Source of the DNA: Pseudomonadota bacterium
GTDB taxonomy: Bacteria > Pseudomonadota > Alphaproteobacteria > Rhizobiales > Xanthobacteraceae
Reading direction: 5' to 3'
Assembly (NCBI GenBank): GCA_016195095.1
Contig: JACQAE010000298.1
Coordinates: forward strand, 1 to 38,452
DNA: 38,452 nucleotides
The notes under the pieces are model-generated. The model worked only from the letters and a program-made list of their open reading frames with translations. It made no database searches and was not told the origin of the DNA. The translations under genes were made by a program, and so were the position numbers. Below are positions 2,572 to 26,808 of the stretch, piece by piece. Position 1 is the stretch's first letter, and each line of letters begins with the position of its first letter.

Positions 2572-3879
2572 TCAGGCCACGCGCTCCTGCCCGCGCGCGA
2601 TGGCGCGTTCCTCCTGCGACACGCCAAGCGTGCGCCAGTCGGTCGATTTCGGCACGACGCCCTCGAACGAGCCGATCCCGGCCTGCGGGATGCGCGGATG
2701 CGTGGTGCCGATCGCCGCCCCGCCGTCGCGCATGGCGCGCGCCGCCGCCACCATGATACGGCGGAATTCCACAACGGCCATGTCGCTCGCGCCAAGCCGC
2801 TCCTTGGTGCGGTCGGAGATCGGTCCCATGGTTTCCCACATGGCGATATCCTGGTTGGGAATGCCGGGGATGCCGGTGAAATTGCCGAGCTTCATCAAGT
2901 TGCGGTCCTGTCCGTAATTATTATCGCGCGTGCGCAGGCTGTTGAAATTCTCGTCGAGGTCGATGCCCACGCGCGCCACGTTGAACTTGCGCCAGGCCTC
3001 CTGTTCGACGCCCGGCTTGTCGGCGCCGTTCCAGGCGAGGAAGTAGAACATCGTATTGCCGTCATCCATGGGCGCGAGCATGGTGGCGACGTTGTGGATA
3101 TTGTTGGGGGGGATGAGCGAGGTGAACGGCGCGACGAACACGGTGACGCGCACGTAGTCATGGGTCGCGGCGTTGACGATCGGGCGTCGGATCGCAGCGT
3201 AGCGAAAGCCGAAGCTTGTCGGCTGTACCTGGAAGCGCGGCGCGCGGTCGGTCGAGGGCCGCAGCCAGGTGGCGTCGGTCGCCTGCGCGGAATCGACGCG
3301 CGCTGGCACCATTTCCGATGAGTGCAGGTGCGAACTATGCGCGGAATCGATTTGACCCTCGGTGACCTGCGCCCAATTGGCGCGCACGCGCATCTTGACG
3401 ATGCTCACCCGCGCGTCGGGCGTTGGCGCGAAGGCCGGCGCCTCGAATTCCGGCATTTCCCGCGCCGGTCCCATATAGGTCCACACGAACCCGCCGGCCT
3501 CGCGTGCCGGATAGGATTTATGCTTGATCTTGTCGGCAAGCCCGCTCTCCGCCGGCTCCGAACTCATTTCGACCACGTTGCCGTCAACGTCGAATTTCCA
3601 GCCGTGATAAAGGCAGCGCAACCCGCATTCCTCATTGCGGCCGAGCGCGAGCGAGGCGCGCCGATGCGGGCAATATTCGTCAAGTATGCCGATGCGGCCC
3701 TCGCTGTCGCGGAAGACGACGAGGTCCTCGCCGAGAAGCCGCGTGCGCACCGGCTTGCCGTCGGGCTCGGTGACTTCCTCGGACATGCAGGCCGCGATCC
3801 AGTGGCGGCGCATGATTTGGCCCATGGGTGCGTCGTCTTCGACGCGGCACAGAAGATCGTTTTCCTCGGCCGTGAGCAC
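2572..3879 (-). CDS. Rieske [2Fe-2S] aromatic ring-hydroxylating oxygenase, phthalate 4,5-dioxygenase-like oxygenase component
   Basis: Rieske motif CPHRRASLALGRNEECGLRCLYHGW; N-terminus MLTAEENDLLCRVEDDAPMGQIMRRHWIAA typical of phthalate dioxygenase-like oxygenases. Confidence 0.9.
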   Translation of the reverse strand: MLTAEENDLLCRVEDDAPMGQIMRRHWIAACMSEEVTEPDGKPVRTRLLGEDLVVFRDSEGRIGILDEYCPHRRASLALGRNEECGLRCLYHGWKFDVDGNVVEMSSEPAESGLADKIKHKSYPAREAGGFVWTYMGPAREMPEFEAPAFAPTPDARVSIVKMRVRANWAQVTEGQIDSAHSSHLHSSEMVPARVDSAQATDATWLRPSTDRAPRFQVQPTSFGFRYAAIRRPIVNAATHDYVRVTVFVAPFTSLIPPNNIHNVATMLAPMDDGNTMFYFLAWNGADKPGVEQEAWRKFNVARVGIDLDENFNSLRTRDNNYGQDRNLMKLGNFTGIPGIPNQDIAMWETMGPISDRTKERLGASDMAVVEFRRIMVAAARAMRDGGAAIGTTHPRIPQAGIGSFEGVVPKSTDWRTLGVSQEERAIARGQERVA

Positions 3880-3978
3880 GGGCGCTCTCCTCCGCTGGCG
3901 CCGTCCACGCGGCGCGGTTGAGATTATATCATTAGACGGCTAAGTTTCCAGCCCGGGATCGACCCGAAACAGAAAAAT

Positions 3979-6172: not shown

Positions 6173-6823
6173 ATGCGCGCGCGCAGGAATCCGGGGCGCG
6201 TAACGCAAGCCGGCGGCACCGAGGCGATCCTGCGCCATTGGCGCGAAGCGGTTCCCGACGACCGCGTGGCGCATCTGGTCAAGGACGCGATGCGCGGGCT
6301 GGCGCGCGCCTTGCAAACGCGGCTGGCGCGGCACCACGTGTCGTTCGGCCACTGGACGTTCCTGCGCATCCTGTGGGTGCGCGACGGGCTGACCCAGCGC
6401 GCGCTGAGCGAGGAGGCCGGCGTCATGGAGCCGACGACGCACGCCGCGCTGCGCGCGCTTGAGCGGCTCGGCCTTATCCGCCGCCGCCGCATCGCGCCCG
6501 ACCGACGCAGCATGCACATCTTTCTCACGCCGCGCGGACATGCGCTCAAGCACAAGCTTGTTCCGCTCGCCGAGGAGGTCAACCGCGTGGCGCTGCGCGG
6601 GCTCTCTTCGGGCGACATCGCGGTGGCGCGCCGCTGCCTGCTGGCGATGATCTTCAATCTCGCCGGCGATGAATTCGACGCGGCGGGAAAGCGGCGCGGC
6701 ATTCCCTCCACACGCGAACTTGGCCGCCGCGTGGCGCGTGCGGCGACCGCGACGCGCGCGCGGTCGATGCGCGCTCGAAAAACGCGCGGTCAGAGCGAAA
6801 GCGACACGACCGCATTGTCATAG
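6173..6823 (+). CDS. MarR family transcriptional regulator (ATG 1 nt after the preceding stop)
   Basis: LRILWVRDGLTQRALSEEAGVMEPTTHAALRALERLGLIRRRRIAPDRRSMHIFLTPRG: MarR winged helix; in-frame start inside ORF 5954..6823. Confidence 0.87.
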   Translation: MRARRNPGRVTQAGGTEAILRHWREAVPDDRVAHLVKDAMRGLARALQTRLARHHVSFGHWTFLRILWVRDGLTQRALSEEAGVMEPTTHAALRALERLGLIRRRRIAPDRRSMHIFLTPRGHALKHKLVPLAEEVNRVALRGLSSGDIAVARRCLLAMIFNLAGDEFDAAGKRRGIPSTRELGRRVARAATATRARSMRARKTRGQSESDTTALS

Positions 6824-7671
6824 GACTTGGCGCCGAGATCGCCGTCCTCGAAAATGCCGCGCTCCTTGATCCACTCGCGGCTTTCCTCGAATACCGCGCG
6901 CGAATAGGGCTCGAACACGATGCGCTCGCCCGGACCCCAGCGGCGCGTATCCATCATGGCGTGGAAGCGCTTGGGAAACTCGTTCTTGAAATAATGCGTA
7001 TAGAGTTCCGGGCGCAGGTCGATGTCGCGTTGCGCGCGCTTGAGCGCGCGGAAATACTTGCGCACGTCCTCGAGGTCGGGATCGCCGGTGAGCATGGTCG
7101 CCATCATGAAGGTGCAGTCGGTCAACTTGCGCAGGCCGAGCTGCTCGGCGAAATAATAGGGCCCGGAGAACAGCGTGCAGGCGGGAATCTTGCCGTCGAG
7201 CAGGAGCTCCATGCGGCCGAACAGCATGCCTTCCTTGTAGGACAGGTTGATCCGGTCGAGCGGCATGTATTGCTCAAGCGCCTGGATGGTCGCGTAGTGG
7301 CTGCCCGACTGGTAGCCGACGGAGACCGGCACGCCGGCGAGGTCGGCGGGCGTCTTGATCGGCGAATCCGCCGGCACGAACACGCCGCAGGGCGAGACCG
7401 AATAGGCGTCGCTGTAGAGCCGGCCATGGCCCTTGGCCGCCGCGACGTTGACCGTCCAATGGCAGGCGCAGCTGATGTCGGACTTGCGGCCCGCCTCGAA
7501 GGTCTGCATGGCGCCGAACTTGTCGCCCTGGGCGTGCGCCTTGCCGTCGGTGGAGAGGATCGTCTCCATGAAATCGTAGTCGAGCCCTTCGTCCTTGAAG
7601 TAGCCCTTCTCCTCGGCGACCCATTCGTGCAGGCGGAAATGCGGCTGGATGATGAACTTGTGGTTTTTCAC
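6790..7671 (-). CDS. periplasmic-binding-fold (NMT1/THI5-like) protein without visible signal peptide; candidate 4,5-dihydroxyphthalate decarboxylase-like enzyme or ABC substrate-binding protein
   Basis: WVAEEKGYFKDEGLDYDF, VFVPADSPIKTPADLAGVPVSVGYQSGSHYATIQALE; N-terminus MKNHKFIIQPHFRLHEW is not a signal sequence. Confidence 0.75.
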   Translation of the reverse strand: MKNHKFIIQPHFRLHEWVAEEKGYFKDEGLDYDFMETILSTDGKAHAQGDKFGAMQTFEAGRKSDISCACHWTVNVAAAKGHGRLYSDAYSVSPCGVFVPADSPIKTPADLAGVPVSVGYQSGSHYATIQALEQYMPLDRINLSYKEGMLFGRMELLLDGKIPACTLFSGPYYFAEQLGLRKLTDCTFMMATMLTGDPDLEDVRKYFRALKRAQRDIDLRPELYTHYFKNEFPKRFHAMMDTRRWGPGERIVFEPYSRAVFEESREWIKERGIFEDGDLGAKSYDNAVVSLSL

Positions 7672-7723: not shown

Positions 7724-8503
7724 TCAACAGCATTCGCGCTTGACGCGCTCGCGCTGCTCGGTCACGCGGCGCGCGCGGATCATCTTGACGTGCTCGTCCA
7801 TGAGCCGGCGGGCGCCGGCGGCGTCGCGCATCTCGATCAGGGACGCAAGCTCGCGGTGCACGTCGAGGACGCGCCTCGCGACGCGCGGGGTCAGCGTCGG
7901 ATTGCGCGCCGGCCAGGCGACGTGCTGCAGCGAGATGAGCTGCGCGACCAGCACGCGGTTATGCGAGGCCTCGGCGACGGCGATGTGAAACTCGCGCGAG
8001 AGGCACGTGTACTCGTCCATGTCGCGCGCCATGACGCGCTCGGCCGCGGCGAGAAGCTCCTTGAGCCGCGCGATGTCGGCGGGCTGCGCGTTTTCCGCCG
8101 CCAATTCGGCGGCGAGCGTCTCGATGGCGCGCTGGGCGTCCATGATCTCGGCGGCGCTCGCCTGCGTGAGATGCAATTGGATGGCGAGCGCCTCGGCGAA
8201 CAGCCGCGCGTTGCCCTGCGCGATGCGCGCACCGCCGCCCTTGCCCATCCTGATGGCGACGACGCCGAGCGCCTCGAGCGTGCGCAAGGCATCGCGCGCG
8301 ACGATGCGGCTTGTGCCGAAGCGCTCCGCGAGGTCCTTCTCGCTGCCGAGGAAATCGCCCGGCCGCAGGCGGCGCGCAAACAGGTCCTCGCGCACCTGGG
8401 CGATGACCTGGGCGGAGAGCGAGGCGGCGCGGCCGGCGAGAAAGATGCGGCCGGGAACGCGCTCGGCGATCGGCGGCCTGGCGTCGCTTATCGCAGGGGT
8501 CAT
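7724..8503 (-). CDS. GntR family transcriptional regulator with FCD domain
   Basis: VIAQVREDLFARRLRPGDFLGSEKDLAERFGTSRIVARDALRTLEALGVVAIRMGKGGGARI; FCD-like C-terminus CLSREFHIAVAEASHNRVL. Start chosen at MTPAIS; an upstream ATG at 8581 is also possible. Confidence 0.9.
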   Translation of the reverse strand: MTPAISDARPPIAERVPGRIFLAGRAASLSAQVIAQVREDLFARRLRPGDFLGSEKDLAERFGTSRIVARDALRTLEALGVVAIRMGKGGGARIAQGNARLFAEALAIQLHLTQASAAEIMDAQRAIETLAAELAAENAQPADIARLKELLAAAERVMARDMDEYTCLSREFHIAVAEASHNRVLVAQLISLQHVAWPARNPTLTPRVARRVLDVHRELASLIEMRDAAGARRLMDEHVKMIRARRVTEQRERVKRECC

Positions 8504-8583
8504 CGCGGCGGCACCCTCGGGCCGCAAGGCGCAGCCAGGGGCATCTTTTAGCGCGGAATCAAAAGCTAGTAAAGATATCATCT

Positions 8584-8850
8584 TTAAGATTTCCCGGTTG
8601 GGAGGGAGGGGGGAAAGAGAAAAGAGAAAAGAGAAAAGAGAAAGGGAAAACGGGGAAAAAGGGAAAACGGGAACTGGGGAAGCGGGGAGGGTGAGAAAGA
8701 CCGGGAAAAGGGAACGGGGTACGGGGAACGGGAAACCGGGAACAGGGCAACGCGGAACGGGAAACGGGAAACGCGGAACGGGAAACGGGAAACGGGAAAC
8801 GGGAAACGGGAAACGGGAAACGGGAAACGGGAAACGGGAAACGGGAACGC
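8584..8850. repeat. purine-rich low-complexity tract ending in a tandem heptad array (CGGGAAA)n, nine perfect copies at 8779-8841
   Basis: Direct count of CGGGAAA starting at 8779 and every 7 bp to 8835, with degenerate GGGAAA/GGGGAA units upstream. Confidence 0.95.
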
Positions 8851-8956
8851 GGAAGGATGCGCGCCGGCGATTGCGCGGCGAAGATCGCCGGGCACGAAGG
8901 CCGGCGGCGCCGGCAATTGCGCGCGGCGGGCGAAGTTGTGCCGTGGCGCTTGCATG

Positions 8957-9096
8957 CGCCGCCCGCGACGGCCGCGGCCCGGCTCGCGGCCGACGGCGCC
9001 GTCCGGGTCGCGGCCCCGGTCGCGGCGTCAATCCCGCTCATGCGCGTCGATCGCGCCAGGCGCCACGGCGTCGCCGTCATGCCTGGCGCGCGCCGC
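8957..9096 (+). repeat. duplicated segment copy A-left (matches 26455-26606)
   Basis: Near-identical by eye: cgccgcccgcgacgg...ctcgcggccg.cggcgccgtccgggtcgcggccccggtcgc...ggcgtcaatcccgctcatgcgcgtcgat.gcgccaggcgccacggcgtcgccgtc; copy B has one extra 12-bp unit. Confidence 0.9.
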
Positions 9097-9501
9097 CTCG
9101 GCCTTGTCATGGGCGACGAGACGCGCCTCCGCCGCGCGCGCGGCGGCCACCGGCGAGAGCCCGGCCTCGCGCAAATCCTCGACGTGATGCAGCCAGGCCT
9201 TGATGCGCGCCGGCACGTGCGGAAAGAAACGCCTGGCGCAAGCCGCGACGTCGCCAGCGCAGCGGCGCGCGCGCTTGCAGCGCCGGTCGCGGCAGGCGCT
9301 CGGAAACCGCAGCATGTCATGCAGCGCGCGGCGGCTATCGTCGATTTCCCGCGCGCTCGGCGCGGCCTCCGCGTCCGCCTCGCCCGCGCTTGTGGAGGCG
9401 CCGGCGTCCGCCTTCCTGGCCATTCGCCCGTGGCCGGTCGTTGCGTGAACGGGTTTGGGTTGGACGGTCTTGCGTTGAATTTTCATCGGTTGAGTTTTCA
9501 T
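9028..9501 (-). CDS. hypothetical protein with Cys/Arg-rich C-terminal half
   Basis: MKTQPMKIQRKTVQPKP...SACRDRRCKRARRCAGDVAACARRFFPHVPARIKAWLHHVEDLREAGLSPVAAARAAEARLVAHDKAEAARARHDGDAVAPGAIDAHERD; coherent domain, start uncertain. Confidence 0.55.
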   Translation of the reverse strand: MKTQPMKIQRKTVQPKPVHATTGHGRMARKADAGASTSAGEADAEAAPSAREIDDSRRALHDMLRFPSACRDRRCKRARRCAGDVAACARRFFPHVPARIKAWLHHVEDLREAGLSPVAAARAAEARLVAHDKAEAARARHDGDAVAPGAIDAHERD

Positions 9502-9948
9502 GGGCTGAATGCTCCGCCGTGTCCGCGGCGCATGCGCGCGGAATTGCCATTGCCCGCGATCCCCGCCATCAGGCGAGGGGATGAAGCGCCGAAAGGCGCC
9601 AGTCCTGCCGCCTCGACCGGCGGGCGCATCGCGCCCGGCCGGTGCGTCGAGGCGCGCGCCCACCTCTCGGGCGCTCGCCTTGCGGCGCTCCATCGCGGCG
9701 ATTTCGGTCCCCGGGTCCGCGCTTCCGTCGCCGGCATTGGCGCCGGGATCGTGCAGCGAGCTCCTCGCGGGGCGGCCTTAGTACCGCCCGGGCGGAGTTC
9801 CGGGGCCTCCCGGGAGCGTGGTTGCGAACCACGCGCGCAGGCGCCGCCTGCGTGCCCGCCCTCAAGACGCCTCATGAGAACGCCCTCGACCGGCCCGCAA
9901 TGTGTAAGAATATAATCCTAATTTATGGCCGAATTTGGGCGCGCGGGG

Positions 9949-10095
9949 CCAGGGGCGCGTCCATGCGATGTCCCTCTGTCGGCGCGGCGGCACTATGGCA
10001 TCGGCCGGTGCCTTGTCAGCTCTTTCCGGCGCGCGCGGCTTCTTTCGATGCGCGCGTGCCAATCGGCCGGCGCATTGCCGCAGGGTTCCAGCCGC
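9949..10095 (+). repeat. duplicated segment copy A-right (matches ~26608-26808)
   Basis: Shared gcgtccatgcgatgtc.ctctgtcggcgcggcggcac..tggcatcggccggtgccttg.ca...c.ttccggcgcgcgcggctt.t.tcgatgcgcgcg. Confidence 0.85.
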
Positions 10096-26289: not shown

Positions 26290-26454
26290 TCTTTCTGGAA
26301 ACCTTGTCAGTAAGGCCGCACGAAATAGCCCTTTGCCCTGGTGCCCGTCGGCATCGATAACGACTGCCTGTACGGCCCTCAATTCCGATTTAAAAACCTC
26401 GTCAACAACGGGTGGTCCGATCGGCGCTTGGGGTGGAACCCTGATCCCGCTGCC

Positions 26455-26808
26455 GCCGCCCGCGACGGTCGCGGTCTGGCTCGCGGCCGGCGGCGCCGTC
26501 CGGGTCGCGGCCCCGGTCGCGGCCTCGGTCGCGGCGTCAATCCCGCTCATGCGCGTCGATCACGCCAGGCGCCACGGCGTCGCCGTCGTGCCGGGCGCGC
26601 GCCGCGCTGGGCCAGGGGCGCGGCCATGCGCGGACGCGGTTGTGCACGGCCGCCGCCATGCGCGCGAACGCGTCCATGCGATGTCTCTCTGTCGGCGCGG
26701 CGGCACGCTGGCATCGGCCGGTGCCTTGGCAAATTCCTTCCGGCGCGCGCGGCTTTTCTCGATGCGCGCGCGCCATTCGGATTGCGCGCTGCCGCAGGGC
26801 TACGGCTC
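26455..26808 (+). repeat. duplicated segment copy B (fusion of sequences corresponding to 8957-9096 and 9949-10095)
   Basis: By-eye alignment; minus-strand ORF ends AARARHDGDAVAPGVIDAHERD versus EAARARHDGDAVAPGAIDAHERD in copy A. Confidence 0.88.

Follow-up and report, generated by a model that had tools for sequence, protein, structure and literature searches.

Does the G-rich heptad array upstream of a GntR-family regulator gene in a Xanthobacteraceae genome regulate that gene, or is it a repeat that the genome tolerates? The original prediction, made from the 38,452-bp stretch of contig that we analyzed (hereafter, the window), was that copy-number slippage or the formation of G-quadruplexes (G4) or triplexes could tune expression of the regulator. 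Repeats of this unit length are over-represented in bacterial genomes and have received little study. We consider it probable that this array is a lineage-private, near-neutral microsatellite of G-rich heptads that grew by slippage beside the GntR gene.

Domain searches agree with the prediction that the minus-strand gene next to the array encodes a GntR regulator with an FCD domain. DNA similarity to relatives spans this gene and its NMT1-like neighbor, indicating that the pair is conserved in Xanthobacteraceae. Orthologs of the regulator, 46–73% identical to it, are present in this family and in certain other Alphaproteobacteria, and their named records are all MAGs. The regulator resembles the FadR-type (FCD) GntR proteins LldR, PdhR, and NanR in its N-terminal GntR helix-turn-helix, its C-terminal FCD domain, and a short palindrome upstream of its own gene, but it differs from them in the candidate palindrome, AAAGATNNNATCTTT, and in scoring weakly against every named NCBIfam model (LldR, 78.6 bits against a cut-off of 311). 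A search at the locus found neither a sigma-70 consensus promoter nor a terminator.

The palindrome is operator-like and had been overlooked in the original prediction, which started the repeat feature at 8584, within the palindrome; the purine-rich tract itself is real and runs from 8600. On the minus strand the palindrome is trailed by CTAGCTTTT, a degenerate third half-site, and the aligned upstream regions have a weaker ATCTT 9 nt past the second half-site. Over the distinct aligned rows the half-sites AAAGAT and ATCTTT are near-invariant, and most positions outside them are at background. With a threshold of at least 14 of 20 positions of TAAAGATGATATCTTTACTA, matches were present in all nine close orthologs (the window among them) and in 26 of the 32 upstream regions of a wider ortholog set; the other six, L069, L070, L072–L074, and L076, were among the more distant sequences, with scores of 10–12 that represent the built-in background. 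Judging from these sequence patterns, autoregulation through TAAAGATNNTATCTTTA, a putative operator, is probable. The core, AAGATNNNATCTT, was matched at only one other place in the genome, loosely (C207:740-752), and the regulator is therefore probably a local one. The conserved palindrome provides a defined candidate operator for an uncharacterized FCD regulator and its NMT1-like partner. A degenerate version of the palindrome, with three mismatches, was also observed at 3918–3934, just upstream of a LigXa-like Rieske oxygenase gene (2572–3879, minus strand).

Table 1 Features of the gntR locus, in positions of the window.
Feature	Position	Strand	Basis or remark
NMT1/THI5-like protein, downstream partner of the regulator	6790–7671	minus	Domain search; relatives align at the DNA level over both genes
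GntR-family regulator with FCD domain, 259 aa	7727–8503	minus	Pfam FCD 6e-23, GntR 1e-13; probable start ATG at 8503
Conserved operator-like palindrome, TAAAGATNNTATCTTTA / TAAAGATGATATCTTTA	8570–8586	minus	35 aligned upstream regions
Degenerate purine-rich units, mostly 7–8 nt	8600–8778 (~179 bp)	none	Likeness to CGGGAAA drops toward the gene
Perfect homopurine mirror repeat, 36 nt, GGGAAAGAGAAAAGAGAAAAGAGAAAAGAGAAAGGG	8611–8646	none	Inside the 8600–8650 purine run; H-DNA candidate
In-register CGCGGAA-CGGGAAA-CGGGAAA-CGCGGAA	8751–8778	none	Abuts the perfect array
Perfect array, nine CGGGAAA units	8779–8841	none; plus strand G-rich, minus strand (sense for gntR) C-rich	Sequence

The purine-rich segment is 248 bp long (8600–8847), has T at three positions (8675, 8692, and 8720), and encloses the nine-unit array at its far end. 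As predicted, the array consists of nine perfect CGGGAAA copies whose GGG runs, spaced at 7-nt intervals, give the canonical pattern G3-N4-G3-N4-G3-N4-G3, and the degenerate units before it, put at ~190 bp in the prediction, measure slightly less. Immediately 3' of the nine copies stand CGGGAA and then CGCGGAA (8848–8854). The period is 7 throughout the tract, with identities at lags of 7, 14, 21, and 28 nt that fall from 0.75 through 0.68 and 0.66 to 0.63, as expected where neighboring units copy each other, and the longest run of lag-7 identity was 64, against a maximum of 14 when the tract itself was dinucleotide-shuffled 1000 times. The array is intergenic and upstream of the GntR gene, but the claim that it lies just upstream needed correction: from the likeliest start codon (8503), the heptads are 276–338 bp and the tract 97–344 bp upstream. 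Measured from the palindrome, the tract begins after 13 bp and the perfect units after about 190 bp.

All of the G4 motif stretches in the window are within the tract (8644–8691, 8703–8747, and 8780–8845), and the G4Hunter score, ~1.14 over the perfect array, peaks at 2.0 in the GGGG-rich degenerate middle. A similar published heptad, (GGGAATC)3GGG, forms a G4 with a T1/2 of 50.4 °C in 100 mM KCl (PMC4692102), which makes moderate folding of (GGGAAAC)n plausible; by this analogy and from the motif itself, the G-rich strand of the array, when single-stranded, would probably fold into a quadruplex. In naming G4 and triplex together, the prediction merged two different parts of the tract: the heptads have a C at every seventh nucleotide and are poor triplex formers, and the strongest triplex candidate in the tract is the homopurine mirror repeat, which is also closer to the palindrome than the heptads are.

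Such structures could act on the gene, if a G4 in the heptads or the GGGG-rich middle, or H-DNA at the mirror repeat, took up negative supercoiling or blocked polymerase and in this way modulated gntR. The confinement of G4 motifs to the tract, the G4Hunter peak, and the folding of the published heptad are in keeping with this idea, as is the nasT promoter of Paracoccus denitrificans, where a G4 150 nt upstream lowers transcription once it is stabilized by a ligand (PMC5123632). The nasT G4 is likewise found in an alphaproteobacterium, as a canonical, intergenic motif upstream of a regulator gene, but it is a single 21-nt motif instead of a simple sequence repeat (SSR), and its effect required added ligand. 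Moreover, CGCGGAA repeatedly breaks the G-runs of the tract, so that selection for G4 is not evident, and none of the relatives with the same regulator and palindrome has conserved the tract. We regard structural regulation of gntR as unlikely.

Comparison with relatives bears directly on the predicted regulatory role. Their upstream regions have no purine or pyrimidine tract (best segment score 18, against 88 in the window), and DNA similarity to them covers both genes and 8548–8590; past that point, the only similarity was to an unrelated heptad array on a viral contig. Conservation thus ends at about 8590, roughly 10 bp before the tract, and this boundary, together with the dispersed repeats on the far side, places the tract in an unconstrained part of the intergenic region. 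A regulatory role of the array was not borne out, and its candidacy as a conserved regulatory element was ruled out: no comparable tract lies upstream of the gene in the relatives examined, nearly all of which keep the palindrome between the position of the tract and the gene. Conservation of a G4 motif along with the regulated gene, a criterion that we added ourselves, was not found.

The tract is equally isolated within its own genome, a 3.81-Mb draft of 307 contigs for which our genome-wide statements rest on pattern searches. Three tandem copies of CGGGAAA, the G3N4G3N4G3N4G3 pattern, and a purine run of at least 30 nt (8600–8650) were each found only in the tract. The CGGGAAA triplet was missing from 299 other genomes of the family and, the own genome excepted, from 385 genomes drawn across the class. 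With one site in its genome and none in these sets, the heptad was ruled out as a dispersed repeat family. A structured RNA was rejected after zero Rfam matches, and a mobile or phage origin was set aside after a distant blastn search of plasmids and phages returned no match, a test weakened by its low-complexity filter. In an exact scan of viral contigs, one unrelated IMG/VR contig (L082, 11320–11395) was seen to have a stored end that is a mixed GGGAAAC/GGGAATC heptad array.

Copy number itself could matter, as in a contingency locus where slippage alters how many heptads there are and thereby how active the gntR promoter is. Tuning by heptad SSRs is established in Haemophilus influenzae, where the copy number of (ATCTTTC)n sets the transcription of hmw1A and hmw2A (PMC8262952); the array resembles those repeats in being a heptad SSR in tandem, located upstream of a gene, here a regulator gene, and nine perfect units are a slippable length. 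However, the hmw1A/hmw2A repeats overlap the −10 and −35 promoter boxes, whereas the array, which is G-rich, is farther upstream at the distances given above, and the would-be target is a metabolic-type regulator and not a surface antigen. Copy-number tuning therefore appears rather unlikely to us. A combined version, with heptad number setting the activity of an autoregulated promoter via G4, H-DNA, or supercoiling beside the GntR palindrome, is likewise unlikely; if true, a free-living alphaproteobacterium would be able to switch a metabolic regulator in a heritable and graded way. The hmw1A and nasT systems are precedents for possible action only, and the non-conservation of the tract leads us to favor tolerance.

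We favor, then, the growth of a near-neutral microsatellite, in which replication slippage, along with the tandem duplication of single units or several at a time, would have multiplied a 7-bp G-rich unit. The site of growth would have been the non-conserved gap between the conserved GntR(FCD)–NMT1 pair on one side and a mosaic of dispersed intergenic repeats on the other, where the array was most likely tolerated and not selected; if it influences gntR transcription at all, it would do so as a side effect. Slippage as the process, near-neutrality, and autoregulation of the gene are all things that we infer. The past gain of units implied by the prediction can be read from the internal structure of the tract: CGCGGAA flanks the perfect block on either side, and duplication of multi-unit blocks best accounts for the reappearance of this rare variant at several positions set apart from one another. 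Nearer the gene the match to the unit weakens, from 7.0 to about 4.7 of 7 positions, suggesting that the units there are older. Two observations sit less comfortably with near-neutral growth. Plain decay of old units should yield more than three T in 248 bp, and the position of the genome's only purine run of at least 30 nt beside a regulator promoter makes coincidence harder to accept.

It is very improbable that the assembler generated or collapsed the repeat number or the degenerate part. The genome is a draft, and related drafts show low-complexity, poly-G contig ends; against this, the tract is internal to a 38-kb contig, its variant units are many and distinct, and the 63-bp perfect part fits within one short read.

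Different private G-rich heptads were observed in other genomes of the family, namely (GGGGTAC)n (L089, 1501–1535), (GGGCGAT)n (L094, 1501–1528), and (GGGGCTT)n (L088, 1501–1535). These heptads differ in sequence and place, so the process appears to recur without a common site or sequence. Poly-G runs, in some cases located at contig ends, made up many of the remaining G-rich matches in family genomes and offer no valid comparison.

Among known repeats, the array belongs to the general kind of G-rich heptameric SSRs, having four or more 7-nt units in tandem, with a GGG run and a G3+N1–7 motif. The repeats of Xanthomonas (GGGNATC) and Nostoc (GGGGA(C/T)T) are of this kind (Rehm et al. 2015, PMC4692102), and the array shares with them the 7-nt unit, the GGG run with a 4-nt spacer, the tandem and intergenic arrangement, the G4 motif, and a gene nearby. 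Its unit, GGGAAAC, is neither of theirs, and it occupies one site in 3.81 Mb, compared with about 180 sites per Xanthomonas genome. Of the Xanthomonas repeats that were examined, 90% are flanked by the same ORFs in both species (PMC4692102), whereas the array has no counterpart in relatives. The locus offers a clean natural insertion: the same regulator and operator candidate, once with a G4-prone tract of 250 bp and once lacking it, can be compared directly.

Beyond the tract, the adjoining DNA (8957–10085) consists in part of dispersed repeats, unlike the heptad itself. It contains a small minus-strand ORF (9028–9489) with a cysteine/arginine-rich stretch, CRDRRCKRARRC, which had zero Pfam matches and weak matches in a few family genomes. 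The segments 8957–9103 and 9956–10085 belong to a dispersed intergenic repeat family whose copies in this genome are 75–87% identical, with further copies on contigs C162, C65, and C258 and at 26454–26613 and 26669–26799 of the same contig (87%). In the copy at 26.5 kb, the middle part with the ORF is missing.
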